A DNA stretch of 64,000 nt, taken from contig NC_091928.1 of NCBI RefSeq assembly GCF_041260155.1, positions 34,754,388-34,818,387 of the forward strand. Reading direction: 5' to 3'. The position numbers and the translations under genes were made by a program. Under the pieces are notes generated by a model. The model was given only the letters and a program-made list of their open reading frames with translations. It was not told the origin of the DNA and searched no databases. Of the stretch, positions 1 through 40,291 are shown in pieces. Position 1 is the first letter of the stretch. Each line of letters opens with the position of its first letter. The stretch comes from Ptychodera flava. Lineage: Eukaryota; Hemichordata; Enteropneusta; Ptychoderidae.

Positions 1-113
1 TGATTTCATTGGATAGCGATGACGCCACCGTACAGCGCACTGACATAGATACAAGTAAACCATTGTGGTTTGTAATTGTATGCAGTAAAAACACTAGAAC
101 AGAGATATTGTAG
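1..113 (+). CDS. 3' end of a TRIM-NHR gene (copy C1), cut by window edge
   Basis: The reading frame starting at base 3 encodes 36 residues and ends at a TAG at 111-113. It is almost identical to the last residues of the C2 gene ending at 10377: both contain DDATVQRTD, KPLWFVIVCSKN and the terminal RTEIL. This is the last strand of a Neuralized homology repeat (NHR), where the family has a 'PLW-hydrophobic' motif. The rest of the gene lies outside the window, so RING and B-boxes cannot be judged. The DNA downstream (114 to ~2500) is homologous to the DNA downstream of C2, so this is the same gene type in the previous duplication unit. Confidence 0.8.
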   Translation, partial: ISLDSDDATVQRTDIDTSKPLWFVIVCSKNTRTEIL

Positions 114-574
114 GTGTGTGATAAAAGCCGTAACTGTAACGGGGGCATGAAAGTATTTCGTAAACTTAAAACTTGTATTGATGGTTCATATACGATATTA
201 TTTATCCTTTCAAATATCAAACCTCACGATGGTCGATATACCAAGTATCGAAAAGTTCAACTATTCAATTCAGTTGAAGGCAAGGATCTCATCCATAAAC
301 TGGGTGCTATTTGTAATTTTTCTTTGCAGACCAAAACCTGCAATAACGTGAGCAAGAATGCAACTTCTTCATATGGTACATTCTTCATCTATTTGCTTGA
401 AAGTGGAGTGACTTTGGCGTGTTTGCATATTTAATCCAATTAAATAATTCAACAAAGTCGACTGCTTTTCGCATGTCTTGTTGGAGAGTTTTACTGAAAA
501 AAAATGACTGGACAAATTTGTGAATTGGAATAACATATCCTGTTCACATGAGTTTTTCATTGAGTGTACTCGTA

Positions 575-725
575 CGGTAAATCTTGAGTAGCTTGTTTCC
601 CTAGTTTCAAAATTTGCACGGTGACCCCTGATTTTTATTCTTGATTTTGAAAGAGAATGATCGAAATATTCTTTGAGGAATGTTTGAGCAAAAGTCTTTC
701 ATTTTCGAGGCGCATACTACCTCAA
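575..725 (+). mobile_element. MITE family copy, right half only
   Basis: This matches the right half of the ~350-bp MITE seen complete at 12511-12867: a 'tttgcacggtgaccc' core, then 'gagaatg', 'gtttgagcaaaag', and a right end of the form TTTCGAGGCGC..ACTACCT. The left half is missing. It is non-coding. Confidence 0.6.
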
Positions 726-1904
726 ATGTAGGACGGTCGTTCCCATCATGTACAATCAAAGATTATAGGGTTGTCGTGTGCTACAACAAATTATGGCATT
801 TTTTGCATGGTATGTTTGTTAACACCATTCACTGTGTCGACTGTCACGCAGCATGTGTCGATCTTATCAACCTGGTTTAGTCAATATTGCACTAGGCTAT
901 TTGCCTAACCTTAGTGGTGTCTGTATTTGCTTTAGATTTTTCAACACCATATTAAATTCCTCTATTGTCGACTACTTGCTATGATTTTAACTTTTGAATA
1001 ATTGTACAATTACGAACCCCTCTTCAAATAAATTTTTGCTTTATCTACCTCTTATCTGAATCTTTATTTTAAACAGGATGGAGAAACTGTACCTGTTAAA
1101 TTAACGTATACTAAACAAGAAAATATTTGTATGATGCAATGTCGCAACGATTTGAGATAACTTATCAACGAAAACAAACGAGAGCATGGGCAGCATCAGC
1201 AGAATGGTGATTTTGTTTCGGTGAGGAACGAAAAGATTTTATCAAGTCAGAGCAAATAACCTCTTGGAGATGTTTCTCAGCAAGAGATGGTCACCGCGTA
1301 TTTCTATACTGATGTCTTGAAAACGTGTATCCGTAATTTTTCTAAAAAACGTTGCTAAAGGATTGGGGTGTCTTGTTGAGTGTTTACATTTCAATACGTC
1401 TTCGTGCATGTCCGAAGTTTTTGAAGCCAACGACGAGATGTTTGGTCTAACCATCAATACACGTCGTACGATGTAATATCAGAACGCCATATTACATTAG
1501 ACTGAAACAAGAGGAAACATTACAAAAACAATTGAACTAAAATCCCATAACTTACTAATGACGAACAAGCTTTTATTATTTGTTTTTATCGTATTATTAA
1601 TATACACAAAAAAAGAACGACTCTCGTGTATTAAGAGAGTTCTTAAACGTTATTTATTATCGAAGCGACTGTTTGTATCACCCTTTATCAATGGATATAA
1701 TCTGATGATGTAAAAATTCTACAAATGAGATATCGACAAGTCATGTCTGGCTATGATTGATCTACTCGAATCAAGATGTCTAAATAATCTTTAAATAGCG
1801 ATAATATACTTCTTGAAATAAAAGATAGCTTACATATCGAGAAATAAAAAATCATTTCAATGGCATAGCATACTTCAAACAATTAGTTACATATATCACA
1901 TCCC

Positions 1905-2227
1905 TTAAGGTATAGCGCACTTCAGATAACGCTCAAACTTTTACAATTCTTTTATGATATACCACTTTTTGGGGTTCATTTTGAAGATCTTTCACAGGCT
2001 AAGTTGTTTCGAAATTCGAAAATGTTACTTTTTCCATATAATTAACACAGGGATGGCGACCATTTTGAATTCCAAATAACGGTAAATCTTTCGAAATGTG
2101 TTTCTCTAGTACTAAAATTTGCACAGTGACCCCCGATTATACTTTCAAAGAGAATGGTTGAACGACTTCTTGACGAAAGTTTTAGCAAGAGTTTAAGTCT
2201 TTTACTTTCGAGGCGAAACTACCTTAA
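1905..2227 (+). mobile_element. ~320-bp MITE copy with TTAA ends
   Basis: It starts TTAAGGTATAGCGCAC and ends GGCGAAACTACCTTAA, so the ends are imperfect terminal inverted repeats with TTAA at both tips. The interior matches the copy at 12511-12867, which occupies the same place in the next duplication unit. That means this insertion predates the split of units 1 and 2. TTAA tips suggest piggyBac-type mobilisation, but no transposase is present. Confidence 0.7.
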
Positions 2228-2523
2228 TGAGTGTAATACAATACAATTTGTCATGACTATCCTTTGACAAATGGTGTGATGTTACTTCCACGTTAATAAA
2301 AAATGCTAGTCTTCGAACTGCACAGCACGATGTAGACGAGTCAGTTTATCAAGGGTTATTTTCGAATGAACAATATAACCCAGCTGACTGTTGGTAATGG
2401 ATGTGTCAATCAAACAGAAATAGGTAATCTAATCCGCATCTAAGTCATAAAATATGGATTGCTATTACACTGGATTAGGGACAGAGTGCACATCAAGTTA
2501 CGGATGAACACGTTAAATTCACA

Positions 2524-2944
2524 ATGGCGAGTGCTGATAATAAGATGGGACCTGTGACACAGATCGACGAAAATGTCCTAGTTTGTGCAGTTTGCTTGGA
2601 AAGGTACGAGAATGCCAAGAGTCTATCGTGTCTGCACAGCTTCTGTGAGCTGTTTCTTAGTAGTCTGGTGAAGAAAACTGGCAGTCTGATTTGCCCACTA
2701 TTTCGATGTGTCTGCAAGCTTCCCTTGGATGGTGTGTCCGGGATACCGAACAACTTTTATGTGAATGAATTGGTTGAGATCTTCAAACTTTGAGACGAAG
2801 GGGGTCAGGAGGTGACGAAATATGGCGGTTGTGAAAAGGGTGGCATTGAAGTGAGATGCAATGGGCGTCATCGTCAATTCCAATGAACCAGTATGGGCCA
2901 TCGTTGATTTCTACTGACGGACTGAAAGTATCAAGTTTTTATAA
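2524..2944 (+). pseudogene. TRIM-NHR pseudogene B1 with collapsed middle
   Basis: The ATG context and first ~85 residues match the B2 gene (15608): an N-terminal RING followed by the PNNFYVNELVEIFK linker. Two RING zinc ligands are lost (Cys44 and Cys60 are both Phe) and a stop follows the linker at 2791-2793. After ~80 bp of B-box 1 homology (to about 2868) the sequence jumps to the last ~75 bp of the NHR (GTATGGGCCATCGTTGATTT), so about 1.4 kb covering both B-boxes, the coiled coil and most of the NHR is deleted. The 3' flank then continues colinear with that of B2. It is non-functional as a ligase; a short RING-only peptide is conceivable but unlikely. Confidence 0.9.
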
Positions 2945-5511
2945 AGTGGCCCTAAACACGCTCTTAGTAAAGAAATAATTACTTTCACGATGCTCCTGCC
3001 TATTCAATAACAAAGGTGATGTTCCTGCGCTTTCTTCGCAAAAAGTTTTGACATGTCGTATACAATTCGAGATACATGAATATTTTCCTGTTAATTAGGC
3101 GTTCTCACCAAATTAGAACAACCTGGCAATGTTCTTCCATAGATTTTGAATGTAATCAGTAATATTGTTGCGCTTCAAGCAGCAGATGCGTAACATCCTT
3201 GCTATTCCCGCTTGTTCATGAACTGAAAGCCAAACCATTGTAAATAAATACTTGTGTCGTCGGGTGTAGGACCCTCAGACGTTGAATGGAGAAACAAACA
3301 TCAAGTACTTTGCCAACACATGTATTTACTTGATAATCAATATACGATATAACGCGGCCAACCAGTAGGCACTACAAAGATTGCACTGTGAAAATACTTA
3401 GTAATTTGTACATTGTGCGCCTTCAAATAAGCGCAACTCAAAAAAGGAGGCATGCTACCAGGAATTTCTTTTACTTCTTCCCGTCTTACGTTCATACTTG
3501 GAATGTTGAGCTATGATTGGCTGCAATTTATGGATTTTTCGCCGTTGCTGCAGTGCTGTCTTCAAGAAGAGAAAAGTAAAGAAAAATTGACTATACGTTT
3601 AACGTAACAGACTGACTTATCATTGACTTCGTCGTTCAATATTCTATGACCTTTTTCTGTTGTTCAAACCATGTACACAGTATCACATGATTCTACTAAT
3701 AAGTAATGTAATATATATATAAATACATCTATTGTAACTATATCAATACCTCTATTGAGTAATATATCTCCTGGACTAAGCAGCTTTGAAGTCATTAAAA
3801 GTTTGACACGAGTACATTAAATGTATAAATTATATGCAAGTACAGTAGTGTAATATACCTTACAGTGAATGAGAGCCACAGTGAATGAGAGCCTCAGTAG
3901 AACGAATCTCACGCTAAATGGCCAGGTACCTGCCAAGTCGGTTTGCCTTCATCAAAGGTCCTTGAAGGTGACCCGAATTCTACACAATCTATGATCTGCG
4001 AATCTACCGGGGTCAGATTTGTTTCCACATCAGACGCTTTTATTTAAACATGTCACTACGACAGAGGTATGCGATAATGTAGGCATCGTATTAATTTGGT
4101 AGGCATACAATTAATGTTCGTTTTGTAAGATTCCATGTAGATGGGCGGAGGTTAGGTTCATGAAACTGCCTGTGATTGGTCAGGGAGCTTGACTGTTTTG
4201 TTTTGTTTGATTCGGAATACGATTGAAGTTATAAGTATGTTTTTCGTATCGCGGATTGAATGTCGCCCCTGCTGCAATATTACGGATTTTGCCGAGCGGT
4301 TCAGATCGCTCATGTCTTCCCTAGATGAATAGATATCATAGATTGTGGATTCAATGCGATCAAGAAAAAAGTGAGCTTATCAACGACTAGCACCTGACTT
4401 CTGATGTTTGACTTTCCAGCATTTCGCACTCATAGCAACTATACACCAAACAGTGTACTCTGTATACTAGTAGATGCAAATCTCTGGCGCAATTCATGCA
4501 GTTGCGATGGCGACGGTGGATGATTCTGTAAATGATCAAGTAACATTAATAAGAGCAGTTAAGACAATTTTGAAACGTGCCATTTCAACGGTGTCAGAAA
4601 GCAAACGTTAGCTTCTAATGGTGTATGGTTTTAATATCCTTTCCGGGATCTTCCTTCCTTCCGATGTAAAGCTAAAATAATTAGCTTTTCGAGAACAAAG
4701 ATAAAGTACACTTGCGATATTTTTCAGACGATAGGACGTGAGAATTCAGTACATTTCGTCCAGGATACGATGCCGTATCTCTTGAAAATACTTGAATCAT
4801 TGTTCTGAATGTCACCTTTTGAGTACTTTGTTACCGAGGCTAAATGAAATTGCATTTTCTGTAACCCGACTTAAGAGTGCATTTAAAACGCCTCCACCCA
4901 ATTCGTTTTCCGCAACATTAGTAGCGAAGAATGATCTTGACTGATTATGATGTTTATCTGACGGGTCGTACCCCATCAAAACTTAAAAAACATCGTTTTT
5001 GGAGACATATAAATGAAACACAATGTCTTTTGGCGTAAGTTACGACAAAGTTATCCTTACCGAAATCAATTTTAAATTACCACGGTAACTTGTACGCAGC
5101 TGTCTAGAACATCTGTTCACAGAACTAATCGTGTATCCTCCGTGTGAAATTTCAAAATATTTATATCATCTACCATCTGTTCTGTACCAATTGCGTTAGA
5201 AGTATGAGCTCAGCAATTTAGGGGATAGTCTTGCATTGACGCGGTAAATGTGTTGGCAATGATGTTGGCTACGCAACTGTGTTAATGGGGTGAAAGGTGT
5301 TATCCTACACAGAGGGTCCAAATTTACATTAAACCAAACGACATGACCTTCAAGTATACAATAATAAGCATAGTGATTGGCATTGTGAACGTACACGTTT
5401 ACACACATCAACATTCCATCGTTACGAATCGTTGCAGAATTTCAACTCGATTCTGATTCTAAATATGCTTTTGCTGCGGTCGACAACGAGGTCACACGTC
5501 AGCACAACAAA
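2945..5511. other. Spacer between B1 and A1, duplicated in units 2 and 3
   Basis: No gene is supported. Long stretches align with 17426-20015 (for example 3240-3350 with 17720-17830, 3930-4140 with 18370-18580, 5280-5420 with 19790-19920), and partly with 37020-37420 in unit 3. The last 80 bp are the A-type 5' leader, which is shared more closely with A3 than with A2. Confidence 0.6.
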
Positions 5512-7290
5512 ATGGATAAAACTCGCAAGGAATCAGATTTTCTTGCAAAGATAGACGAAAACTTTCTAGTCTGTGGCATCTGTTCGGAGAGGTACATAAA
5601 TGCTAAAAGTTTGCCGTGCCAACACTTCTTCTGCGAGTTATGTCTTGGTAAACTGGTCGAGAAAACCGGGCGACTCGATTGTCCAATATGCCGTCGTACT
5701 TGCGCAGTTCCAGAGGGAGGGATGGAGAAGCTACCAAACAACTTCTTCGTCAATCAGTTAGTGGAAGAATTCCAATTACGAGAAGGAAATATGGAATCGA
5801 CATTATGCGGTGGGTGCGAGTCAGAGCATGGTTGTGTCAGATGTATCGAGTGTAAAATGATTTTGTGCTCGTCCTGTGAAATTCCTCACACAAGGTTGCC
5901 GGCAACCAAGTCCCATCGCTTATTAAAGTTGGATGAGTACGTGGCGTCAAGGTTAAGTGACCCCTATGATGTGTCACCGCCTATGAGATGCTCAAAGCAC
6001 GAAGTTTACCCGTTGGTTTATTACTGTGATTCATGCGATGAGGCGATATGTTTAGAGTGTACGGTCATCGACCACAGAGCACCTCAACACCATCACCGGT
6101 ACTTGAAAGACGCAGCCAGAGAATATGTTGCCGAACTGGAAAAGCTGCTGGCGCAGATGGCCGAGAAAGAGGGCGAAGCGAAAGAGAGTATAGACAAATA
6201 ACGCTATGAAAAGGCAGGTGCATCTGGATAGAAAGTATGAATTCGAGGAGATAAAGTTGAATTCCCATATCGACGGCATCGTTCAACAGGTACGAGAAAT
6301 CGGAACACGATTATCAGAGGAGCTGAAATCTGAGTATATGTCGAGGAAGGCAGATTTGCAGGGACAAGTGAAGGAACTTCAGCGTGCAGTTAACAACTTT
6401 GCGAGTACACGCGACTACATCAAGAATCGTTCAGAATTCGGTGGCGCTGAGCAGGTGATTACTGCCAAAAAGGAAATAACGCTACGGACGATACAACTGA
6501 TGAAGACACAAACAAAAACGAGAGCAAATAAGCGAGATTTATTCGAATTCATACCGGCAAATGATCTGATTGACTTAGATGTCTCCAAAATCGGTGGATC
6601 GCAGGATTAGCCAACCAATCAGTTTTCTCTGAAGTGCCAAAGCAGGCAGGTAACATTACAAGGTCAGTACCTGCTATCTATCAGGTACATACATTCCCTG
6701 TCAAGACTACTGGATCAGATAGCGAATCAGACGACAGATGTGCCGATGACAATGATAATGCTGTCGCTGCTGATGATGACACATTTCCACCGACAGGGCA
6801 GGGCGCAACTGCCATCGAGCCTCTAGGGTTTCATGGTCTTCACGGAACCAATGTAACCCTATCATTGGACCGGAAATCTGCTAACAGCAGTCGCATAAGA
6901 AACAATATTGTGTTCAGCAACAGATCAGCTAACTATGGCGAGAAAGTGAAAGTACAATTCAGTCAAAAAATGTCGTTTCTAAGGCGATCCCACGCCGACA
7001 TAACATTCGGATTTACCTCAAACGATCCAAACTCACTGTTTTTGTCAAAGCTGCCACCACGCGCCATCCCTCTCCTGAAAGAAAACGACGGCTATTGGCT
7101 GCAGTGTCTCTCGAGCGCCAATAGAAAGACACGTAATATCCTTGTGTTCTGGGTGACGCAATTGGGAGAGATCAAGTACTCGATCAACGACGTCGACAAA
7201 GGAGTCGCACTGAATAACATACCAACTGTAGAACCATTGTGGGCTGTTATCGACTTTTACTCGGAAATCAAAAGTATTGAGTTAGTTTAG
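5512..7290 (+). pseudogene. TRIM-NHR gene A1, broken by two frameshifts
   Basis: This is a full-length A-type gene in three frames. Frame 1 (5512-6201) has an intact RING (Cys21 to Cys60, C3HC4 spacing), B-box 1 (from ~99) and B-box 2 (from ~160). Frame 2 (6206-6610) is the coiled coil. Frame 3 (up to 7290) is the acidic linker and a complete NHR with FHGLHGTNV, FGFTSNDP, GYWLQC and PLWAVIDFY. Against A2, the first break is a ~4-bp insertion near 6197 that creates a TAA, and the second is a 1-bp loss near 6600 (GGTGGATCGC against GGTGGAATTGC). All domain residues are otherwise well kept, so it is a young pseudogene or carries sequence errors. A product from the first frame alone would be a RING/B-box protein lacking coiled coil and NHR. 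Confidence 0.85.
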
Positions 7291-7452
7291 TGAACATCAA
7301 TGTAAGAGACACAAAAGTTCCTTTCAGCAGTGCACGAAAATGTTTGATCCACACGGCATATTTATTTTGACAAAAAAGTTTTAATAGTGTTCACTATGGT
7401 CCCTCTATCACATTTAAGGCTATGCTATTATAAAGCGGTTTAAATATACAGT

Positions 7453-7794
7453 TGACGTATCACGCACCTCAATTTAAAGCCTTAAACCTTTCTTGAAACA
7501 TTCCCTACCAAGAGAACTTTAAGCCGTTCCCTTTCGAAATAAATAAATCAAAATCAGGGGTCACCATGCAAAATGTGGCATAACGGAAAGAAATGATCCA
7601 GCTCTACGCAACTTGAAATTCATGCAATCTCTATATTAATTAAAGGGGGAGTTCTTGAAATTTTCTAGTTTAACTAAAACAAGTCGGTGAAAATTTTATT
7701 TATAAGCTTAAGAATAAGCCCCAATAAGTGGTAGACAAAAAAGGCCTCGCAAAGTTTGAGAGTCCAACCTATCTCCAAGGTGCATTCTACCTTT
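7453..7794 (-). mobile_element. ~340-bp MITE copy downstream of A1
   Basis: This is an inverted copy of the MITE family. It has left-end similarity (TATCACGCACCTCAA), the 'ggggtcaccatgcaaa' core and the right end AAGGTGCATTCTACCTTT. A copy sits at the same place downstream of A2 (21939-22286) but none follows A3, so the insertion happened before units 1 and 2 separated and after their split from unit 3. Confidence 0.7.
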
Positions 7795-8612: not shown

Positions 8613-10377
8613 ATGGCAGCAGGGAACGACGAGAAGTCATTTCTTGAGAAAATCGATGAAAATTTCCTCATATGCACCATCTGCTCGGAAAGGTATATCA
8701 AAGCCAAATGCCTTCCTTGTCTGCATACATTCTGTGAACCATGCCTGGGTCAAGTTTTGAAGAAAACCGGGAAGCTGGATTGCCCTATTTGTCGACGTAC
8801 GTGTGCTGTTCCACGTGGCGGTGTTGGCATGCTGCAAAACAATTTCTTCATCAATGATCTTGTGGAGCAGTTCAAGTTACGGGAAGGAGGTAAGAGTGAA
8901 TTGTCAACGAAATGTGGTGGCTGCCAGGAAAATGAAGGTGACGAGGTGAGATGCATTGAGTGTGATGTGAATTTGTGTTCAACTTGTGCACGTCCGCACA
9001 GACGAGTACCAGCAACCCGGTCACATCGACTGATGCCTCTCACTGCCTATAAAGAGGCAAAGTCCGTTCACCCCGCATCGGTGACAGTACCAATGCAGTG
9101 TGGAACGCATCAGGCTAACAAGTTGGATTATTTCTGTGTGACGTGTGATGAGGCGATTTGTCTAGAGTGTACAGTTATCGATCACAAAGCACCAGAACAT
9201 AAACACCAATACCTTAAAGAGTCCGCAAAAATCTACGCCAAGGAGTTGGACAAACTGTTAACGAATTTGAATGACAAAAAAACAGGAAGTTAATGAGAGC
9301 ATAAATAATGTAGATAAGACAATAACATCACTTGAGAAAAGATTCGACGAAGAGAAAAGAAAGTTGTCAATCCACATCGAAGATATCATTCACCACGTGC
9401 AAAGTATTGGAACGCAAATCACAGAGGAAATGAAATATGAGCTTGAATCTAGAAAGACAAACTTACACAGGCAAATGAAGGAACTGCAATGTATTGAGAA
9501 TGATTTGACCAGCACACGTGACTACGTTCAGAATATTTCGCACTTCGGTAGCCCTGCACAGTTAATGACCGCCAAGAAAGGAATATCGTCACAAGCACAA
9601 GAACTTACAAAGTTAGAAACAAAAGAACAACCAGTAGAGAGTGATTACATTGAATTTGAAAAGGCTGATGACCTTATTGAGATAGGAGCTGCTGGCATTG
9701 GCAATGTACATGGTCTGGCAGCCCTTCCGAATGTAAACAAAACTTCGGAGCTAACCCGAAGTCAACTTGATGTGTCTACAACACCAGAAGCCCATGATCA
9801 TCAAAGTACACCAGTATTTACTTCCGCGGAGGAGGTTTCTGGCGCCATTGCCAGATTGAGAGACGGTGAAGAGCAAATGCAAGGAAGATCCACAATAAGT
9901 GCTCAGTGGCAGATGAAGTTGCGATTTCATCAATGTAACCAAGGAAACGTTGTGTTTTCTTTTGATCGAAAATCGGCCATCACCTTTGGAAATCGCGCCG
10001 TAGTTTTCGGTCATAGGTCAGTTGTTCTTGGTGAGAAAATATCGTTAAGAGTCCGCGATGAGGACATTAGCGTGTGCTATCCTTCCTCCAGAATAACATC
10101 AGTAGGATTTACAAGTAAATACCCAGAAGATATTCCCACTTCATATCTAGAAGAGCTCGTGACGGGGCCGAGTCATATACAAACATTACAGGATTTTTGG
10201 CTTAAATGCATTTATGGTAATATCGATATCATCCGATTCTGGGTGCAGAAAGAAGGACATATGCTCATTGCATTGGATACCGATGACGCCACCGTACAGC
10301 GCACTGACATAAATACAAGTAAACCATTGTGGTTTGTAATTGTATGCAGTAAAAACACTAGAACAGAGATATTGTAG
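8613..10377 (+). pseudogene. TRIM-NHR gene C2, one frameshift in a poly-A run
   Basis: This is an intronless RING/B-box 1/B-box 2/coiled-coil/NHR gene of about 587 codons. Frame 1 (8613-9293) has the RING (Cys21, Cys24, Cys36, His38, Cys41, Cys44, Cys57, Cys60), B-box 1 (CGGC..CIEC..CSTC) and B-box 2 (CGTHQ..CVTCDEAICLECTVIDH). Frame 2 is open past 9270 and ends at 10377; it carries the coiled coil and a divergent NHR (LRFHQCNQGNV, VGFTSKYPED, FWLKC, KPLWFVIV). The switch falls at a run of seven A (9276-9282), where one base more or fewer restores the frame. This is typical of either a real slippage mutation or a sequencing/assembly error, so the gene may be functional. The C-type NHR lacks the GYW of the A and B types. 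Confidence 0.8.
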
Positions 10378-12996
10378 ATGTTTAATCCAAGCCGTAACTG
10401 TAACGGGGCATGAAAGGATTATGTAAACTTAAAACTTGTATTGATGGTTCATATACAACATTATTTATCCTTTCAATTTTCAAATCTCACGATGGTCTAC
10501 ATACCAAATATTAAAAGGTTCAAGTATTCAAGTTTAATTGATGGCAAGGACTCATCCGTAAACCAGATACTATTTGTAAGTTTTGTTGTAGACAAAACCT
10601 GCAATAATGTGAGCAGGAATGCAACTTCTTCACATGGAATATTCTTCACCTGTTTGATTTGAAGTGGAGTGACTTTGGCGTGTATGCATATAATCCATTT
10701 AATAGTCTTTCGACAAGTCGACTGCTGTTCACATGTCTTGTTTGAAAGCTATATCAAAAAAGTAGGTGAACAAAATTGAGAATTTATTGAAATAACATGT
10801 CCTGTTTATTCGAGTCTTTCATTGAATGTACTATGCTGTATGAGCGTGTGTAGAAAATTGGCTGTGTTCTATAGATATCTCGGAATAAATTATAAATAAA
10901 TTGTATACATTCACCTCTTTGATCCTGAGATATAATATATTTAATAACACAAATTAACCAGAAGCTATCTTGACTCCTAAAATGGGTGTAAATATGGTGT
11001 CAAAACATTCCTTACAGACAACCGCATAAATATTTTGTATTCGTGCGAGGAAAAAGAGGTATAATGTGTGAACAAGAATGCCGTTCCGTTGTTTTAAGGT
11101 GAAAAGGAAGCAGAGAAAACGATTGATACTTTTGACTGATATTTTCAACATTTTGATTGAACAAGATGAGATATAGTCAGGTACCACAAATTTGCATACA
11201 TTCATATATGGAATACACGGTAGTGACATTGTGTAAATATTTTAAAAATCAAGCCCCAAATCATTAAAGTCTAGCTGTCAAGGGTTTATTGCGATGATAT
11301 ATGTTTTCAATTCGAATATGCGAATGTAATTCTGTCTATCGGCCTAGCATACGATTGCAGCGTATACAGCCAAAAATTCATATACCAAAGGACACATATG
11401 AAGTAAAGTGTAGGCTGGTCGTTCCCATAGAATAAAATCAGAGGTTAAATGGTTATCGTGTACAATAAGAAATTATGACACTTTTGCAGGTGTTGTTTGC
11501 TGACATACTTCAGTGTGTCGACTGTCAACTTCAAGCAGTATGTATCGAGCTTATCAATCTGGTTCAGTCAATACTGCACCAGGCTATTTGCCTAACCCTA
11601 GTGTGACCTAATGTCTTTGTTTGCTTTAGAATGTTTAATGTCGTATTAAATCCCTCTGTTGTCAACCATTTACTATGATTATAACTTTTGTATAATTTTA
11701 AAATTACAAACCCTCTTCAAATAAACTGTTGTTTTATTTACCTCTTATTTTTAATTATCTTTATTTGTGGTAGGATGGAAAATTGTACCTATTAAGTTAT
11801 TTTATACTGAGCAAGAAAATAATTTACGATACGATGTCACAACGATGTGAGATAACTTATCAATGAAAAAACACGAGCACGTGCAGCATCAGCTGAATGG
11901 TTATTTTTGTTAGGAACGAAACAGATCTCATCAAGCCAGAGCAAATAACCTATTGGAGATGTTTCTGAGCATAATTTTATACTGATGTATTTAAAACTCG
12001 TATCCGTAATTTTTCTATAAAAACATTGATGAAGGATTGGGATGTATTGTGTAAGTGTTTTGTTTCCGCACATCTTCATGCATGTCAGTTTTTGAAGTGA
12101 CCGACGAGACGTTTGGTCACAAGAGCAATTACGTCGAACGATGTCATATCAGAACGCCGCATATAGACTGAGATAAGAGGAAAATTAACAAAAATAATTT
12201 AACTGAAATCTCATAACTTTATTATTAATATACACCAAAGAATGACTCTCGTGTATTACAATTTATTATCGAAGCAACTGTTTGTATCATCCTTTATCAA
12301 TGGATATAATCTGACGATGTTAATATTCTACAAATGAGATATCGACAAGTCATGGCTGGCTATGATTGATCTATTCAAATCGAGATGTCTAATCTTTAAA
12401 GACCGATAATATACTTCTTCAAATAAAAGACAGCTTACATCTTGAGAAATAAAAAATACATTTCAATGGTATAGCATACGTCAAGCAATTATCTACATAT
12501 ATCTCATCCCTTAAGGTAGAACGCACCTCGGATTCACAAATTTCGACGCTCAAACTTTTACAATTCTTTTCTGATATACCACTTGTGGGGGTTCATTTTA
12601 CAGCTCTTGGTACAAGTAAAACTTTCCACTGGCTTAGTTTTTCGAAATTTCAAAATTTTGTCCTTCTCCATAGAGTTCACACAGGGATGGCGGCCATTTT
12701 TCAATGTCAATTATCGGTAAATCTTTTTGTATTTGTTTCTCTAGTACCAAAATTTGCACGCTAACCCTGATTTTTATTTTTAATTTGAAGAGAATGGTTG
12801 AATGATTTCTTGACGAAAGTGAGAGCAAAAGTTCAAGTCTTTCACTTTCGAGGCGGAACTACCTTAAAGAGTGTAACACACTACAATTTGTCATGACTAT
12901 CCTTTGACAAAAGGTGTGATGTGACGTCCATTTTAATAAAAAAAATGCTAGTCCTTGAACTGCATAGAAAGATGTAGACGAGTCAGATTATCAACT
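10378..12996. other. Spacer downstream of C2, copy of 114-2340
   Basis: No gene is supported. It is colinear with the spacer after C1, including the MITE at 12511-12867. The homologous region is interrupted at 12997 by a LINE and resumes at 15444. Confidence 0.6.
12511..12867 (+). mobile_element. Complete 357-bp MITE copy with TTAA ends
   Basis: The left end is TTAAGGTAGAACGCACCTCG and the right end is TTTCGAGGCGGAACTACCTTAA shortened at the tip. Reverse-complementing one gives the other with few mismatches over ~20 bp. TTAA occurs at both tips. The interior contains GGATGGCGGCCATTTT, a motif found in most family members. It occupies the same spot as the copy at 1905-2227. Confidence 0.75.
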
Positions 12997-13006
12997 GTTG
13001 TTTTCG

Positions 13007-15443
13007 GACTTTTGATCCCGTTTGCTACGGCAACACGAGTTCTGGGCTCTCCGTTTTTTGTCATTTTCTGCACGTTTGCGTTGAAAATTTGGCTGCTCGA
13101 TTCGTCTCTTGAAAGTTTGTTCGAACGCCTCATCCCGCTGATTTTGTTTGTACACATCGGCGGAGACTTTTCACGATAGTTTTTAAGTGCCCACTCTTGA
13201 AAATGGCCGATAATGACGTGCGCACTGAATGGACTTCGGTTGGCCATCATCGTTAGCCTGAACGTCGTGAGTTCACGTTTTTCATCTTCGAACGCTCTTT
13301 TATTGAATTTTGGGAATCAAGAAAGTATCTTTTGACCTTTGAAGAATTATATAATTGCTTGATTCAAGAAATTCATTGCGACAATTTGATTTCTGTAAAC
13401 AGTGCAAAAAGTTCGTGCCTTGTGGCGCATTCATGTCAGAGACAGGCAATCCTGGTATCTATCACCCTGCGAGGAAGATCTGCCGACATTTTTGAACACA
13501 ACCCTTTTTCATTTGCAACCAGAATGCGTGCTTTTGGAGCAACCCGAATTCGAGTGAAGAATCTGTTGACGATATTGCCCTTCGCGACGAACTCGCAGAA
13601 CAAGGCTGTAACATTATGTCTGGCATTTCTCGATAAAGAATCAGATACAATGGCAAGTTAACAAACTGTGACCGAGTGGTTTTTGCAAGAGTTGCAAGCC
13701 GGTGAGTCTCTTCCTCGAACTGGAATGAGCGTCTGTTGTTTTCAAATTCGCGTCTTCCATCCTGGGCAGAACGTCTCCGCCAGGAGACCTGCCTACCCAG
13801 AAGATCCACGCTCTCCCTATTCAACACCGCATCAACAACCTTCGATGGTCAAGCGTAAATCTAATCATTGACAAGAAACCAGCGATGTCGATAATATTAC
13901 CTCTCATGATTCTGCTCTGCGACACAGCAAAAGCTCAGATTCATCGTCATCTCAATCTTATCGTCGACGTAGCAATAGACAACAGAGACAATCTCAGGAA
14001 TTTCACAACACAGAAGTAAGTCCTACTACTGAAAGTTTACAGGTTATCGATGACGCACGCCATTGCTCCGAATGAAAATGATTTAGCAGATACTTCAAAT
14101 GCAGATTTTATGGATGGCAAGGGCTCTTTATCAGATTCTTCCTGCAGTTCAGAAACTGCATGTCCAACTTCAGCAACTTCAATCTCTCCACCAGAAGTTA
14201 ACGAATTTAACAATGAGAGTGACTCTAGTTTTTCACGTCAAGGACGGCAGTCTAACACTGGTTTGTCAGGTAATAAGATTCCACACAAAATTTCAAGTTT
14301 CTTTAAATCAAGTCAGAGATCTAAAGTAAAGGTTAAACAAAAAGAAGCAAACATCGCACTAAGGAAGGAACGTATCTGGACTCGTTCGAAAACAAAGAAG
14401 TAAAATATGAATTTTGAGAATAAATAGATGAAGCTAAAGCTGTCTATTGCTGTGATTAACACAGCGAGGTATTTAATCTGTCATTATGGATTTCTTGAAT
14501 ATAATCTCCATTAATGTCAACGAATTTCTTTCATTGGATCAAACGTCAAAAAGTAGACTTATGTCTACTACAAGAAACACACATTACATCAGCACAAAAT
14601 TCTGCGGAACAAAGAAAAAGAAAGCGCAATCAGCTTGAAAATGATCCGAAGATTCTCGAGAATAAGTTAGATGAAATTCTTGATTCTAAATTTCTTGATC
14701 TATATAACATACTGAAACAAGAAATCCAACTACAATATAATGAACAGCTTGCGTTCTCAATGGCATTAAATATGGATTCATCAAACTATTGGGCTTACGA
14801 ACGAGAGGAAGTTTGCAGAGTTTAATTATAAAATTATGTACAATATTCTTCCGAATGGCCTAAATCTTTTACTGTAGAAAATTGAAACCGGTGGGAAATG
14901 TAAAATTTGCAATGCGACTGATTCATACGAACACATGTTTCTTGATTGCAAAAGGCTTGCTCTATTCTGGCAGCAGGTTAATTGTTTGCTGTTAAAACTT
15001 GATATTTAAATATCTGTAGATTTCTACATCATTGTATTAGGTTATAAACCTGCTCATGAATCTTTGTTGATTAGAGTTGTCAACTTAGTCATCACGCTTG
15101 CAAAGTATTGTATCTTTTCTTCATGAATCGTGGGGGCATTTTAGAAAAGACAACGAGTGCCAAAAATCGGTGCTATCGTACGATTTGTTTCAAAACTACT
15201 TGCATTTTAGTTCAGAAATTTAATAACTATCGAAAGATTTTTTGTCTTTTGGAAAAGAATACTTGTGAAATTTCAGATAAGATTGTACAGGAAAATAGAT
15301 ACAACATTATCAATGACTGTAAATATGAGTCCATTTTTTCTTCTTGAACAATTAATAATATATTACGGAGAAATAAAGTCTGTGTAGTATATACCAACGA
15401 AAATTAATTAAAACTATCACACTATCTCTCTTAATAAAATGGG
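13007..15443 (+). mobile_element. Internally deleted Tx1/L1-like LINE in the C2-B2 spacer
   Basis: The element is flanked by a 10-bp direct repeat GTTGTTTTCG (12997-13006 and 15444-15453) that is single in unit 1, so the insertion boundaries are clear. In order it has remains of an ORF1-like region (~13332-13860 and 14050-14403, Ser-rich then basic, ending KTKK), the start of an ORF2 apurinic endonuclease (~14486-14620, with ISINVNEF and LLQETHIT in neighbouring frames), then a jump to the ORF2 C-terminus (~14800-15345, with YNILPNGLN and a CKIC..DSYEHMFLDCKR zinc-knuckle-like motif). Reverse transcriptase is missing, so it cannot move on its own. Clade assignment rests on the 'FHWIKRQKVDLCLLQETH' style and is tentative. 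Confidence 0.75.
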
Positions 15444-15607
15444 GTTGTTTTCGAATGAAAAATAAAAGCTGTTGGTAATGGATGTGTCAATCAAACAGAA
15501 ACAGGTAAACTAATTTGCATCTACGTCATCGAATATGAATTGCTATCAGACTGACTTAGGGACAAAGTACACACTATCAAATTACAGATGAACACGTTAA
15601 ATTCACA

Positions 15608-21788: not shown

Positions 21789-21938
21789 TGAACATCAATC
21801 TCAGAGACACAAAACATTTCTTTCAGCAGTGCACTAATCTGTTTGGCAACTGGGCATATCTATTTTGAAAAAAAAATGAGGTTAAAATTCTATTCGCATT
21901 TCAGGCGAAGCAATCTTTAAGCGGTTGAAATGAATAGC

Positions 21939-22286
21939 TTAGGTATTACTCGCCTCGAAATTAAAGACCTTAAACTTTTATTGAAGCATTTTGTGAGAAA
22001 ACTTTAAGCCATTTCATTTCTGAGTAAAAATATATAAAAATCAAGTATCACAATGCAAACTTTGGCACTAGAGAAAGAAATGATCCAGTATTTCACGCAG
22101 CTTAAAATTTAAGTCATCCTTGTATTAACTCTATTGAGAGTTCTTGCAATATTGGATTTTAAAACAAAAACCAGTAGGTGAGTATTGTTTTAGCTTCAAA
22201 GCCTTGAAAGTCCCCGTAAGTGGCAGACCAAAAACGCCTCGCAAAGTTTGAGAGTCAAACCTGACCCGGAGTGCATTCTACCCTAA
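21939..22286 (-). mobile_element. ~350-bp MITE copy downstream of A2
   Basis: Same family, orientation and position relative to the gene as 7453-7794. Ends are GGTATTACTCGCCTCGAAAT and GGAGTGCATTCTACCCTAA. Confidence 0.7.
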
Positions 22287-26270: not shown

Positions 26271-28993
26271 AGCTCCCATAGCCATATGTATATATGGCAA
26301 TGGAAGCTATTCTTATAGGCTAGGGAAATGTCTGTATGTATGTATGTATGTCTGTATGTCTGTATGTCTGTGTGTCTGTATGTCTGTATGTCTGTATGTC
26401 TGTCCGTCAACATCAAAAACTCCAAAACCGCTGTACATTTCATCTTGATATTTGGTGTGTACATGGATGATGGGCTGTAGATGAGATTTTGTTCAAATGA
26501 AGTTGTCATTGCCAAAAAATATGCAAATTAAGTGAAAAAATGTAAAAACAGTCAATTTGAAAAAACTCAATAACCACTGAGCAGATTACATGAAAAATTA
26601 GCATGTAAGTACTTTGGGCTGACATGAAATGATTGTGCACATCTTGGGTCAGTATCTTGGACTTGCTATTTTTCATGAATTTTTTTGTAATTTTCTCCAT
26701 TTTTGGTCAAAAAATCTCCTGCTCTGAAACCACAAGTCCGATTGATTTGAAACTTGGTATGGAAGTGCATAGGAGTGACCTTTCCCAAATTTGGGCAAAT
26801 CGTGGTGAAATTTGCATATTTTTAATTAACACGTCCATAGACTCCCATGTATAAGGCAGATCTCCATAGACTCCCATGTATAAGGCCACGAAAAATAAAA
26901 ATTTAGTTTCTCATCGTATTCATATTGCAAAAAGGATGCAGTGACACAATTTTTAGTCCCAGCGGATGAAGTCCAGTGGGCTTATAGATTGGGTCATGTC
27001 CGTCTGTTCGTCCATCCGTGAGTCCATCCGTTCACGCAGATATCTCGGATATTTTGACAAAATGTCATGTGACCTCGGTGACCTTTGCTCTCAAATATAC
27101 ATATTTGTCCATAACTCAGTAACCACAAGTGCTACCACCCTTCATATATGGTATGATGGGACACCTTATGACGCCACATATTGTACCCAATTAATTATGC
27201 ACATATCTAATTTTGAGCGAGCCAATAGAGCTAGAGGTCTGATTTTTGGTATATAGGGATAACTTAGCAAACAATTTTTTTGACAAAATGTCACGTGACC
27301 TCGGTGACCTTTGACCTCAAATATACATATTTGTCCATAACTCAGTAACCACAAGTGCTACAGCCTTCATGTATGGTATGATGGGACACCTTATGACGCC
27401 ACATATTGTACCTCATTAATTATGCGCATATCTAATTTTGAGCGAGCCAATTGAGCTAGAGGTCTGATTTTTGGTATATAGGGATAACTTAGCAATACAA
27501 TTTTTTTGACAAAATGTCACGTGACCTCCGTGACCTTTGACCTCAAATATACATATTTGTCCATAACTCAGTAACCACAAGTGCTACAGCCTTCATGTAT
27601 GGTATGATGGGACACCTTATGACGCCACATATTGTACCTCATTAATTATGCGCATATCTAATTTTGAGCGAGCCAATTGAGCTAGAGGTCTGATTTTTGG
27701 TATATAGGGATAACTTAGCAATACAATTTTTTTGACAAAATGTCACGTGACCTTGGTGACCTTTGACCTCAAATATACATATTTGTCCATAACTCAGTAA
27801 CCACAAGTGCTACACCCTTCATGTATGGTATGATGGGACAGCTTATGACGCCACATATTGTACCTCATTAATTATGCGCATGTCTAATTTTGAGCGAGCC
27901 AATATGGCTAGTGGTCTGATTTTTGGTATATAGGGATAACTTAGCAAACAATTTTTTGGCAAAATGTCACGTGACCTCGGTGACCTTTGACCTCAAATAT
28001 ACATATTTTTCCATAACTCGGTAACCACAAGTGCTACACCCTTCATGTTGTATGATTGGACACCTTATGACGCCACATACTGTACCTCAATAATTATGCG
28101 CATATCTCATTCTGAGCGAGCCAATAGAGCTGGATGTCTGATTTTTGGTATATAGGGATAACATAGGAGAGAAATTTTTTGACCAAGTGCCATGTGACCT
28201 CGATGACCTTTTACCTAAAATATATGTTTATGTCAATAAATAAGTAACCACAAGTGCAGTAGGATGGGAGACCTTATGACAACACACGCTTTACCTCATT
28301 AATTGTGTACACATCTAATTCTGGGCAAGCGAATAGAGCTAGAGATCTGATTTTTTGGCATATAGGGATTAATTAGCAATATGGTTTTTTTTTTTCAAAA
28401 TGTCATGTGACCGCGATGACCTTTGACCTTGATTATACATATATATGCATATTTCAGTAACCACAAGTTCTATACCCTCCAATTTTGATAGGATCTTAGA
28501 CCTTAAGATTTCACATCTTGTACCTCATTTATAATGTGCATATGTATTTCTTGGCTGGCCAATACTTCTAGAGGTCTGATCTTTTTTCCCGATTTAGAAC
28601 CATAACTTAGACATGCCTCATGTGTTTCAAATTGGGAACAACGACATAGACCTATGTGCCCATAGATCTCAACATATACACTCCAGTGATACTTCTTAAT
28701 GACCACATTTTCCTGCCCCATCAAGACTAATACTCCTATTACAAGTGGGGACTATGTCATTGTAAATGACTTGTTGAGTTAATGGTTGTATCACAGTATT
28801 CGATATATCTAATTCTGTATTTTTTTCCATTTTATATTATGAATAATTACATGAAACATATTTCACTGTCTCCAGTACATTACATTTAAGTATTTTCACT
28901 TCATGCACTTTATCCCTTCACACATGTTCAAATATCTGACCAGAGAACAAACACTAAATAGTCCAGGATGGGAGCCACAGTGTCATTGACGCT
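26271..28993. mobile_element. 2.7-kb non-coding element with internal satellite, nested in the LINE
   Basis: It splits the LINE between ..LINAFIF and SKLDYCN.. and is flanked by ATTTTT (26265-26270 and 28994-28999), a possible 6-bp target duplication. It opens with a 17-bp stem-loop (AGCTCCCATAGCCATAT at 26271-26287 pairing with 26292-26308, 15 of 17 paired). Next come a TGTCTGTATG low-complexity run (26325-26403), a region with ACCACAAGTCCGATTGATTTG (one base trimmed), and a second start-like block at ~26957 with a TGTCCGTCTGTTCGTCC run. The satellite follows, and GATGGGAGCC near 28967, inverse to the opening GCTCCCAT, lies near the end. There is no coding capacity. It could be a non-autonomous Helitron-like or foldback-type element; the class is unresolved. 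Confidence 0.6.
27050..28620. repeat. Satellite array, seven ~226-bp units
   Basis: Using the conserved TGTCACGTGACC as anchor, units start at about 27063, 27289, 27515, 27741, 27965, 28188 and 28401, giving periods of 226, 226, 226, 224, 223 and 213 bp. The central units are ~95% alike; the last two are more diverged, and the array fades by ~28620. Each unit contains an E-box-like CACGTG (CATGTG in outer units) joined to three TGACCT half-sites separated by 3 and 1 bases, then a CCATAACTCAGTAACCACAA block and a TATAGGGATAACTTAGCAA block. Confidence 0.93.
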
Positions 28994-29000
28994 ATTTTTT

Positions 29001-29631: not shown

Positions 29632-29632
<1 letters not shown>

Positions 29633-29865
29633 TTCCTATTTGTACCTGTCAGTGAGATTCACAGATTATGATCGTGTCTGGTGGCAGCGGTAGGGTGCGT
29701 GTTTCAGATGAACTGTAAGATCTAGGGAAAGTCAAACTTTAGTCAAAGTTTACTTCTATTTCGGCAAGCCCGAGACGAAAGTATACGAGCAGACGACGGA
29801 AGTATCTTTGAAATGTTTTATTCGTACAGCAACTAAGTCACGAACGAGTTACGACGCTACAGCTT
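29632..29865. other. Short non-coding gap between LINE and foldback element
   Basis: No feature recognised. Confidence 0.3.
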
Positions 29866-29874
29866 ACAGTGTAC

Positions 29875-30739
29875 TAGCTCTGCATGGCAGGGCTGTGTGT
29901 TACCGGCGTTACACGGCCTCCCACCACAGCCCTGCAGACTGATATAGAAAGAACCGCTGGTCCACCTGCAGAAACACGGCGGGCAGTTTATCCGCCGAAA
30001 ACAGCCGATTTTGAATCCAAAACTTGCATTGATCTTCGTTTTCGAGCACACCCACCTCGCCTGGGTACACGATGTGCCCAGCCGCGCTTGTAAACTCACG
30101 CAAAGCCTAATTTTCACTCTCTATGCGAGGGAAGCATTCGTAACCGCCGTCATTGTTATTGTCATTCAACCCATGAGCACTCGGGCGAAAACCAGCCTTG
30201 CTAACAAAGAGCATCGCGATGTTGCACACTGTAATAAATATCATTTCTAACCACCACTCAGCTATGTACAATCTACGATGATTATTTTCTGTTGACAAAA
30301 TAATTTTCTTTTTTTCTCTTCAGCATTTTATATATTTCACAATTTTCTCTTGTTCCACTCCTCTCAGAACGTCGACTTTAGAAGCTCTATATCGCGCGAT
30401 GCTCTTTTGTTAGCAAGGCTGGTTTTCGCCCGAGTGCTCATGGGTTGAATGACAATAACAATGGCGGCGGTTACGAATGCTTCCCTCGCATAGAGAGTGA
30501 AAATTAGGCTTTGCGTGAGTTTACAAGCGCGGCTGGGCACATCGTGTACCCAGGCGAGGTGGGTGTGCTCGAAACGAAGATCAATGCAAGTTTTGGATTC
30601 AAAATCGGCTGTTTTCGGCGGATAAACTGCCCGCCGTGTTTTCTGCAGGTGGACCAGCGGTTCTTTCTATATCAGTCTGCAGGGCTGTGGTGGGAGGCCG
30701 TGTAACGCCGGTAACACACAGCCCTGCCATGCAGAGCTA
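29875..30739. mobile_element. 865-bp Mutator-like foldback element with 346-bp arms
   Basis: The left arm 29875-30220 and right arm 30394-30739 are inverted copies with very few differences (starting TAGCTCTGCATGGCAGG and ending with its complement), separated by a ~173-bp AT-rich loop. The nine bases ACAGTGTAC occur directly outside both ends (29866-29874 and 30740-30748), a 9-bp target-site duplication typical of Mutator-like elements. No transposase is present. Arms are GC-richer than the surroundings, and the near-identity of the arms suggests a recent insertion or arm homogenisation. Small open frames inside are not credible genes. Confidence 0.85.
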
Positions 30740-30748
30740 ACAGTGTAC

Positions 30749-31860: not shown

Positions 31861-31930
31861 TCTTTTACATGTCACGTGAGTCGTGTTTAACCAATGGCAG
31901 TGCACACTGAATGAGTGAGGTGTAAAAAAA

Positions 31931-32545: not shown

Positions 32546-32881
32546 AAATGCTTAAAAACACACAAGGTAGCGACATAGATACAAAATTGAAACACAGACG
32601 GAAACAACAAAGGACCAACTGGAGGTTTAAAACACTACATCGAGTTTGCGTTAAAATTGAAACTGCTGATGGAAGAAATGAAGAGCGTCAACTTACAGAC
32701 AATTGCAATATACCGAAACACGTTAGCATTTTTAGTTCATATTTGTTTTTGTAGATGGCTGTGTCAATCAGACAGAGCCAGGCATTCAAATCCGAATCCA
32801 GGTCAGAAATTATACGTCATGGGTAATACGTGAGGTCAAGGTACACACAACAGAGGTTCACATAAACACATTACATTCGTC

Positions 32882-37794: not shown

Positions 37795-38431
37795 TCATAA
37801 ATACCCCGGTAATGTTTAGGAGAACATTTTCCAACCTCTTTGCTAGGCATTTAGTGTCTATTTTATATTCTGAGTTTAATAGGAAGATTGGCCTCCCGTC
37901 TATCAGAAATTTTCTGTCTCAACCATTTTTCTCAAGAAGAACAATGACCCCTTGTTTCTGAGAGATGGAGAGGTTGCCCTCCTTGAAGCTGTATTGAGGG
38001 AATTCAGGATATGATTAGAAACAAATGGCCAAAATGCTTTATAGAAGTCAGCAGGGATCCCGTCGTTCCCGGGTGTTTTGTTACCAGGGAAACTCGAAAG
38101 ATTTGACCATTGTGATTGCTTCCTCCGCAGTGACGGGACCTTCGCATAAATTTCTCTGTTCATCAGTCAATTTTGGGATATCATCATTGCTCAGAAACCA
38201 TGTCTGTTAACATCAAACTCGGGATCATTAGAGTCTGAGTCTGAAGGAGTACAAATATTAGTAGAAGGAATAAATTTCAGACAGATTATATTTAGTTGTG
38301 GTACAATGGGAACAGTATTTTCTGCGCAAGGAGTCTTTCTGAGATTTATGTGCATTAAATTTGTCCAGCTTCGCATCACCAGCTTACAATTTCCAAACAT
38401 ACATGTAATAGCGTCGGGAAGAGGATTCAAA
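37795..38431 (-). mobile_element. LINE reverse-transcriptase fragment (minus) just upstream of A3
   Basis: The minus strand around 37903-38163 encodes FPGNKTPGNDGIPADFYKAF followed by WPFVSNHILNSLN, the conserved N-terminal RT segment of Tx1/L1-like LINEs. A degraded continuation lies towards 37800. The homology between A1 and A3 5' leaders resumes at ~38431, so the fragment was inserted only ~90 bp upstream of the A3 start codon. It is damaged and lacks both ends. Confidence 0.7.
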
Positions 38432-38521
38432 TGATAGGAATCGTTGCAGAATTCAAACTCGATTCTGATTCTGAATATACTTGACTGTCGTCGTAACGAG
38501 GTCGCACGACATCGTAACGAA

Positions 38522-40291
38522 ATGGATAAAGCTCAACGAGAATCGGACTTTTTGGCGAAGATAGACGATAACTTTCTAGTCTGTGGCATCTGTTCGGAGA
38601 GGTACATAAATGCTAAAAGTTTGCCGTGTCTACACTTCTTCTGCGAGTCATGTCTTGGTAAACTGGTCGAGAAAACCGGGCGACTCGATTGTCCAATATG
38701 CCGTCGCACTTGCGCAGTTCCAGATGGAGGGGTGGAGAAGCTACCAAACAACTTCTTCGTCAATCAGCTAGTGGAAGAGTTCCAATTACGGGAAGAAAAT
38801 ATGGCATCGACATTATGCGGTGGATGTGAGTCAGAGCATTGTACTGTAAGGTGCGTTGAGTGTGAAATGTTTTTGTGCTCGTCCTGTGAAATTCCTCACA
38901 AAAGATTGCCGGCAACCAAGTCCCATCGCTTATTAAAGTCGGATGAGTACACGGCGTCAAGGTTACGTGACCCCTGTGACGTGTCACTGCCTATGAGATG
39001 TTCAAAGCACGAAGTTCACCCGTTGGCTTATTACTGTGATTCATGCGAGGAGGCGATATGTTTCGAGTGTACGGTCATCGAACACAGAGCGCCTCAACAC
39101 CATCACCGGTACTTGAAAGACGCCGCCACAGAATATGTCGACGAACTGGAAAAGCTGCTGGCCGAGATGGCCGAGAAAGAGGGCGAAGCGAAAGAGAGTA
39201 GAGATAACGCTATGGCAAGACAGGAGTATCTAGACACATTGTATCAATTTGAAGGGAAAAAGTTGGATTCCCATATCGAAGGAATCGTTCAACAGGTACG
39301 AGAAATCGGAGCACGATTATCAGAGGAGCTGAAATCTGAGTATATGTCGAGGAAGGCAGATTTGCAGGGACAAGTGAAGGAACTTCAGCGTGCAATGAAC
39401 GACTTTGCAAGTACGCGCGACTACATCAAGTACCTCTCGGACTTTGGTGGCGCTGCGCAGCTGATGACCGCAAAGAAAGGCATAGCGCTGCAGACGATAC
39501 AACTGATGAAGTCAGAAACGAAAGTGAAGACTCGGGAACAAGATTGCTTCGGATTCATACCGGCGAATGATCTGGTAGTCTTAGATGTGTCAAGTATCGG
39601 AGAAATCACAGGCTTGGCCAATCAGTCTGTTTTAACCGAAGTGTCCAAACAGATGGGTAGCAGCAGATTTTGGTTGCCCTTGTCAATACCTGACAAAGAT
39701 GAAGTGTGTACACAGAACTTTTCATTTCCCGAAAAGACTGCTGGAACAGATTGTGAATCACAAGAAGTTGGACTAGGCGATGATGACGTCAGATCTTCAC
39801 TAAACGAGAAGGACGCCACCCTAATCAAACCATTGGGGTTCCACAGCCTTCACGGCACAAATGTCACCTTGTCGTTGGCCCGGAAATCTGCTCACAGCAG
39901 TTGCCTTGGGAACAACGCTTTGTTCAGCAACAGGTCAGTAGAGTGTGGCGAGAAAGTGAAAGTAACATTCAAACAAAAGAAATCGCTTCTGAGGAGAGCC
40001 AAGGCCAACATAACATTTGGATTTACCTCACACGATCCATACTGTACGTCATCGTTGCCAACGCGCGCGATCTCTGACGTGAATGAAAACGACGGCTATT
40101 GGCTGCAGTGTCTCCCGAGCGCCAATAGAAAGACGTGTAACATCCTAGTGTTCTGGGTGACGCAACAGGGAGAGCTGAAGTACTCGATCAACGACGTCGA
40201 CAAAGGAGTCGCACTGGATAACATACCAACTGTAGAACCATTGTGGGCTGTTATAGACGCGGAAAACAAAAGCATCGAGTTAGTGTTTTGA
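38522..40291 (+). CDS. TRIM-like E3 ubiquitin ligase with C-terminal NHR (A3), intact
   Basis: 589 aa from the ATG at 38522. An in-frame ATG at 38444 would add 26 residues, but these are encoded by the 5' leader shared with A1 and A2 and have no counterpart there, so 38522 is preferred. The RING (all eight C3HC4 ligands), B-box 1 (CGGC..CVEC..CSSC), B-box 2 (CSKHEV..CDSCEEAICFECTVIEH), coiled coil, linker and NHR (FHSLHGTNV, FGFTSHDP, GYWLQC, PLWAVID) are complete. The linker is quite unlike that of A1 and A2 (no Asp run), and the NHR is shorter by a few residues near FGFTSHDPYC and the C-terminus. Function as for A2: a probable E3 ligase with unknown NHR ligand. A LINE fragment lies just upstream and may affect its promoter. 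Confidence 0.92.
   Translation: MDKAQRESDFLAKIDDNFLVCGICSERYINAKSLPCLHFFCESCLGKLVEKTGRLDCPICRRTCAVPDGGVEKLPNNFFVNQLVEEFQLREENMASTLCGGCESEHCTVRCVECEMFLCSSCEIPHKRLPATKSHRLLKSDEYTASRLRDPCDVSLPMRCSKHEVHPLAYYCDSCEEAICFECTVIEHRAPQHHHRYLKDAATEYVDELEKLLAEMAEKEGEAKESRDNAMARQEYLDTLYQFEGKKLDSHIEGIVQQVREIGARLSEELKSEYMSRKADLQGQVKELQRAMNDFASTRDYIKYLSDFGGAAQLMTAKKGIALQTIQLMKSETKVKTREQDCFGFIPANDLVVLDVSSIGEITGLANQSVLTEVSKQMGSSRFWLPLSIPDKDEVCTQNFSFPEKTAGTDCESQEVGLGDDDVRSSLNEKDATLIKPLGFHSLHGTNVTLSLARKSAHSSCLGNNALFSNRSVECGEKVKVTFKQKKSLLRRAKANITFGFTSHDPYCTSSLPTRAISDVNENDGYWLQCLPSANRKTCNILVFWVTQQGELKYSINDVDKGVALDNIPTVEPLWAVIDAENKSIELVF

Follow-up and report, generated by a model that had tools for sequence, protein, structure and literature searches.

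A 64,000-nucleotide stretch of the Ptychodera flava genome (NC_091928.1, positions 34,754,388 to 34,818,387), called the window below, carried a tandem cluster of TRIM-type genes. Their RING, B-boxes and coiled coil (RBCC) were joined to a C-terminal Neuralized repeat (NHR). The cluster probably represents an acorn-worm TRIM family, likely E3 ubiquitin ligases, that arose by domain replacement, an NHR taking the place of NHL, and then multiplied as C-A-B triplets. Eight places on the plus strand between 3 and 40291 were mapped by tblastn, and a ninth relative was located on the minus strand:

3 to 113, plus strand: C0, the last 36 codons and stop of a type C NHR, cut by the left edge of the window, 97% identical (tblastn) to residues 552-587 of the P. 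flava protein P0008
2524 to 2941, plus strand: A1, RING plus the beginning of B-box 1, followed in a different frame by the last 25 NHR codons (tblastn)
5512 to 7290, plus strand: B1, RBCC-NHR copy whose frame is broken twice, near 6196 and near 6598, NHR piece with an expectation value (E) of 2.3e-29
8613 to 10377, plus strand: C1, RBCC-NHR copy interrupted by a single frame break, which lies in an A-run near 9280
15608 to 17425, plus strand: A2, open single-frame RBCC-NHR gene, 605 amino acids, NHR at residues 451-605
20016 to 21788, plus strand: B2, open single-frame RBCC-NHR gene, 590 amino acids
33942 to 35681, plus strand: A3, RBCC-NHR open frame that lacks a start codon before the RING and any equivalent of A2 residues 1-17
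38522 to 40291, plus strand: B3, open single-frame RBCC-NHR gene, 589 amino acids counted from the ATG
52597 to 53592, minus strand: D, divergent ninth relative, part of the coiled coil and an NHR (E 1.1e-32)

The domain architecture was identified by searching nine query pieces with Pfam profile hidden Markov models. RING, B-box and Neuralized (PF07177) domains were all present in A2, A3, B2 and B3, and the C-terminal NHR on an RBCC module that had been read from visible motifs in the original prediction was thereby confirmed. The NHR was detected with E-values of 1.2e-26 (A2), 5.8e-29 (B2), 1.9e-25 (B3) and 5.4e-24 (A3), corresponding to bit scores of 85-101 (cut-off 23.3). It reached the final residue in A2, A3 and B2 and stopped 9 residues short of the end in B3, with the RING at the N-terminus. 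Two stretches per protein matched the B-box family PF00643. In the broken copies B1 and C1, RING and B-box were found on the N-terminal pieces and Neuralized on the C-terminal pieces. The order of RING, B-boxes and coiled coil that characterises TRIM/RBCC proteins held in A2, A3, B2 and B3; the coiled coil, also predicted earlier, was seen in the structure model of B2 and placed in the others by alignment. The Cys/His positions of the RING showed no variation across seven aligned members. NHL repeats, the C-terminus of class VII TRIMs, were not among the Pfam matches of A2, A3, B2 and B3, and no SPRY or PRY family was matched up to E 1. NCBIfam searches of A2 and B2 returned just a rad18 match below cut-off. 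Judged by these domains, the cluster proteins are TRIM-type and, by prediction, most likely E3 ubiquitin ligases. The genes had also been called intronless; a single open frame does span the protein, and the term is limited to this sense, read from genomic sequence.

B2 was taken as the representative copy, with the following parts, all on the plus strand:

20076 to 20198: RING, residues 21-61, with TRIM3 and TRIM2 as its best solved relatives
20307 to 20420: B-box 1, residues 98-135, the weakest B2 domain call (PF22586, E 0.0058, below cut-off)
20487 to 20600: B-box 2, residues 158-195 (PF00643)
20607 to 21002: coiled coil, residues 198-329, long helices in the structure model
21114 to 21311: acidic linker, residues 367-432, predicted local distance difference test (pLDDT) below 50 in the model
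21327 to 21785: NHR, residues 438-590, a Neuralized beta-sandwich by Pfam and by fold searches of the model

Unlike the B2 copy, B-box 1 of C1 and A3 scored above the PF22586 cut-off. D had the top Pfam NHR score among the pieces scanned (113.5 bits). No RING or B-box was detectable for it in 52500-60000, where the best match (E 0.41) was noise, and D is possibly a RING-less derivative.

Comparison of the window with itself showed how the cluster is built. C0-A1-B1 and C1-A2-B2 were two copies of one C-A-B unit, matching at 3-570 versus 10267-10832 (84.5%), 724-2364 versus 11406-13006 and 2866-7791 versus 17347-22282 (about 5 kb, 80%). A3-B3 was a third unit without a recognisable C. The cluster therefore consists of tandem triplets losing members. 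The eight tandem copies in 40 kb of the original prediction were recovered as eight plus-strand places; D adds a ninth relative on the minus strand, and the order is one of C-A-B triplets, not of equal units. Around A1, the match of 2353-2871 to 15442-15955 was followed by the last of the unit matches, leaving A1 without about 1.39 kb compared with A2. On this comparison, A1 is a probable pseudogene. A3 was probably truncated at its 5' end.

Three of the eight tandem copies (A2, B2 and B3) were open from ATG to stop, four (A1, B1, C1 and A3) were damaged as read, and C0 was cut by the window edge. The damaged copies claimed earlier were thus recovered by tblastn. Some of the frame breaks may be assembly errors, because a rhodopsin-family G protein-coupled receptor (PF00001; 59069-60156, minus strand), unrelated to the cluster, was also split over two overlapping frames, by either a frame break or an assembly error, and because a whole P. 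flava protein, P0008, exists for the broken C1, whose break sits in an A-run. The A1 deletion and the missing A3 start are harder to explain in this way. A decaying, mostly non-functional cluster holding the relics of a formerly useful ligase is very unlikely. The four damaged copies, the edge-cut C0 and the absence of a RING in D would fit it, whereas A2, B2 and B3 were open over 589-605 codons, an open RBCC-NHR protein (P0008) is annotated in P. flava, and some breaks are perhaps artefacts, as for the C1 A-run and the nearby receptor. In addition, synonymous divergence (dS) between B2 and B3 was 0.23-1.15 by domain, at ratios of nonsynonymous to synonymous divergence (dN/dS) of 0.31-0.66.

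Relatives in the protein databases were mainly hemichordate. Named hemichordate proteins accounted for 13 of 17 matches in one search and 14 of 18 in another; the remaining four in each were unnamed. PF07177 was annotated in three of the 17 matches, P0008 and P0011 from P. flava and P0010 from Glandiceps talaboti, and the 18-match search added none. P0011 is a gene model without a RING, and P0009 (P. flava) ends in a short NHR-like start, judged by eye. In the source annotations, the RBCC-NHR relatives are named TRIM56-like, TRIM71-like and TRIM2-like. The two pieces of C1 were 98% and 96% identical to P0008 (tblastn). Against this 96-98%, the best identity among the 18 matches was 49% for A2, 53% for B2 and 50% for B3; absent gene models or a different haplotype or species could account for this. 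With the B2 NHR alone as query, 190 candidates were scored and one match was obtained, P0026, an unnamed protein with four NHRs. P0026 had no RING by Pfam and may be NEURL4-like by our reading of its sequence. Reachable animal NHR proteins thus appear to be few in the database, which informs little on other phyla. No NHR donor was identified among these 190 candidates.

The two ends of the proteins pointed to different families. In sequence comparisons to solved structures, the N-terminus of B2 was nearest to TRIM3, TRIM2 and TRIM56, and Drosophila Neuralized came nearest to its C-terminus; A2 behaved alike. TRIM2 and TRIM3 ranked ahead of TRIM28, TRIM21 and TRIM5, which groups the RBCC with class VII. 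In fold searches, the closest solved NHR to that of B2 was Neuralized NHR1, with 36-38% identity. An RBCC tree of 22 rows was calculated from class VII-like matches. Eight rows (A2, A3, B2, B3 and P0008-P0011) formed one clade with support of 93/90, adjoining hemichordate RBCC-Filamin-NHL proteins. P0025, a 280-residue model that ends before any C-terminal domain, fell outside this clade and was left out of the eight-row count; if counted as NHR-bearing, two changes are needed on the tree. The NHR tree comprised 12 rows, with the four repeats of P0026 as sole outgroup. It branched like the RBCC tree, A with B and then C, and the TRIM NHRs and D were apart from the P0026 repeats (91/89). Because the outgroup was one protein, the NHR tree goes no further than compatibility with a single capture. 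Taken from these sequence trees, a single origin of the RBCC-NHR family has moderate support.

A plausible intermediate was present in Glandiceps. P0010 aligned with P0012 over residues 1-471, through the Filamin domain, and then entered its own NHR. Its Filamin domain had a Pfam E-value of 0.005, below the curated cut-off, and its model (mean pLDDT 60.5, low confidence) matched Filamin structures. By alignment and model, the B2 linker occupies the position where P0010 has this Filamin-like domain. According to a passage in PMC9732051, a Filamin domain belongs to all class VII TRIMs except TRIM32. Replacement of NHL by an NHR, with the Filamin domain decaying afterwards, would be the simplest account.

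Several observations weigh against this history. Half of the tandem copies were damaged as read, as described above. P0009 had no NHR by Pfam and was counted as RBCC-NHR from its eye-judged end, and the NHR of P0010 came from a truncated gene model covering 73 of 149 profile positions. The RBCC tree included no TRIM beyond class VII-like matches, the single-origin nodes were unstarred in both trees (93/90 for RBCC, 91/89 for NHR), and an outgroup made of one protein's four repeats tested two captures poorly. NHR identity between type C and types A and B (32-35%) was about that between B2 and a P0026 repeat (33%). Filamin traces were weak in P0008 (E 3e-7), P0009 (3e-8) and P0011 (2e-5) and were partly scored on residues preceding the Filamin domain; no Filamin domain was found in A2 and B2, with best E-values of 0.19 and 3.

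Under the favoured account of domain replacement, an ancestor common to Ptychodera and Glandiceps would have had a class VII TRIM gene (RBCC-Filamin-NHL, of the TRIM2/3/71 kind) that exchanged its NHL propeller for an NHR. In this presumed order of events, erosion of the Filamin domain in the A and B copies would then have left a flexible linker that is often acidic, and the genes would have multiplied as C-A-B triplets. In the protein, the coiled coil is expected to form a dimer. As in TRIM2, the RINGs would pair through the helices on either side of them and so activate E2~ubiquitin, giving a predicted ligase activity, and the tethered NHR would bind a substrate motif and thereby select the ubiquitination target.

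Selection was estimated as Nei-Gojobori dN/dS for the four recent pairs A2/A3, B1/B2, B1/B3 and B2/B3, with four domains each and B1 in pieces. Mean dN/dS was 0.31-0.66 over all domains, none above 1, and 0.33-0.61 for the NHR. The linker had the highest dN in all four pairs and was the most variable part; a variable linker had been noted in the original prediction. The older pairs A2/B2, A2/C1 and B2/C1 had dN/dS of 0.12-0.47, with dS saturated or not computable. Identity between A2 and B2 was 60% for RING-B-box, 47% for the NHR and 39% for the coiled coil; between type C and types A and B, it was 57-59% for RING-B-box versus 32-35% for the NHR. The NHR was clearly less conserved than the RBCC in the C-type lineage only. 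Given these ratios and identities, there was constraint on average, with faster NHR change in one lineage, and an arms race was neither shown nor excluded.

The suggested fast evolution in the manner of immune TRIMs is so far unsupported by the ratios in recent copies. An immune receptor family, in which SPRY-fold NHRs would recognise pathogen molecules while the cluster grows and decays in an arms race, as for TRIM5 and the fish fintrims, is rather unlikely. Within this one sequence, the cluster is tandem and copy-variable like immune TRIM expansions, but no domain of the recent pairs exceeded a ratio of 1, the A2 versus B2 NHR was intermediate between RING-B-box and coiled coil, and a term search of PMC10210618 (main text), which deals with the acorn worm Saccoglossus under immune challenge, found no TRIM named. 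It is also doubtful, though conceivable, that acorn worms independently built a counterpart of the vertebrate SPRY-TRIM defence, by swapping the NHL propeller for a SPRY-fold NHR and multiplying the ligases into a repertoire for recognition whose tethers vary. Developmental or signalling ligases are an unlikely alternative, under which the NHR would have retained a Neuralized-like ligand and the copies would be variants for dosage or tissue. Candidate ligands are a Brd/Tom-like motif, a membrane lipid or a Notch-pathway partner. Constraint on all domains and the similarity to Neuralized NHR1 agree with such a role. Tandem multiplication, frequent damage and an NHR identity of 32-35% between types are not expected if the signalling partner is fixed.

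Gene conversion was considered separately. The dS of A2/A3 was uneven (NHR 0.16, coiled coil 0.68), but contrasts at fourfold sites were weak. Among 16 tests with uncorrected p values, ten were not significant; the others were A2/A3 (NHR 0.027, coiled coil 0.046, linker 0.023), B1/B3 (linker 0.002, RING-B-box 0.013) and B2/B3 (linker 0.037). Gene conversion is therefore not claimed.

Other features of the window were mostly repeats. Minisatellite arrays were located at 27046-28608 (unit about 226 bp) and 50090-51013 (unit about 156 bp). An inverted repeat at 30040-30208 and 30406-30574 had 169-nt arms, 99% complementary, and a spacer of 197 nt. Its longer version (29865-30218 and 30395-30747, 98%) is perhaps a young foldback or transposon. 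Self-comparison showed a dispersed repeat in both orientations at 1933-2230, 12511-12870, 45617-45976, 55458-55792 and 58684-59028. In an open frame of 319 codons (44664-45623, plus strand), a hydrophobic stretch was seen by eye close to the first ATG, and Pfam gave no match.

The C-terminal domain of a TRIM ligase determines what is recognised. The RBCC-NHR class adds a C-terminal type to the TRIMs, with the RBCC-Filamin-NHR protein of Glandiceps as plausible intermediate. It suggests repeated attachment of the SPRY fold to the RBCC scaffold, with different domain families as sources. With NHR and RING at opposite ends of one ligase, these proteins offer a way to ask if substrate choice is set by the NHR alone. 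Should a member prove to be induced by infection, hemichordates would have a parallel to the immune TRIMs. The TRIM survey by Sardiello et al. (PMC2533329) describes few types of C-terminal domain. RBCC-NHR proteins as a class already catalogued across animals, which would have contradicted the original prediction, were not described among the literature matches listed, mostly titles and starts of abstracts. The word "neuralized" was absent from the main texts of PMC3503706, PMC2533329, PMC3137616 and PMC11175523 in a term search. The nearest statement came from a passage of PMC8195603, in which SPRY, PRY and the Neuralized repeat are put together in one group of SPRY-like domains that are joined to RING or HECT ligases.

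Among known systems, class VII or Marin subfamily C TRIMs (TRIM2, TRIM3, TRIM56, TRIM71) share the RBCC order and, for TRIM2, TRIM3 and TRIM56, the best solved RING matches, and their hemichordate RBCC-Filamin-NHL members adjoin the family in the tree. The cluster proteins differ from them in carrying an NHR instead of NHL and in the Filamin domain, which was not found in A2 or B2. With the Neuralized family they share the NHR, by PF07177 and by fold. Neuralized proteins have NHRs followed by a C-terminal RING. In contrast to NEURL1, Drosophila Neuralized and NEURL4, the cluster proteins have one C-terminal NHR and an N-terminal RING, B-boxes and coiled coil. From the SPRY TRIMs of classes I and IV (TRIM5, TRIM21, TRIM9, TRIM67) they differ by the NHR, the absence of PRY/SPRY by Pfam, an RBCC nearest to class VII and two B-boxes. 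Further parallels are TRIMs with a swapped C-terminus reported in PMC3137616, zebrafish ftr52 (cyclophilin A) and ftr06 (chromodomain) and primate TRIM5-CypA. They likewise carry a new recognition domain on an RBCC, and the fish cases are a precedent for the process; the donor domain differs, and the acorn-worm swap is common to two genera, multiplied and contained in one open frame.

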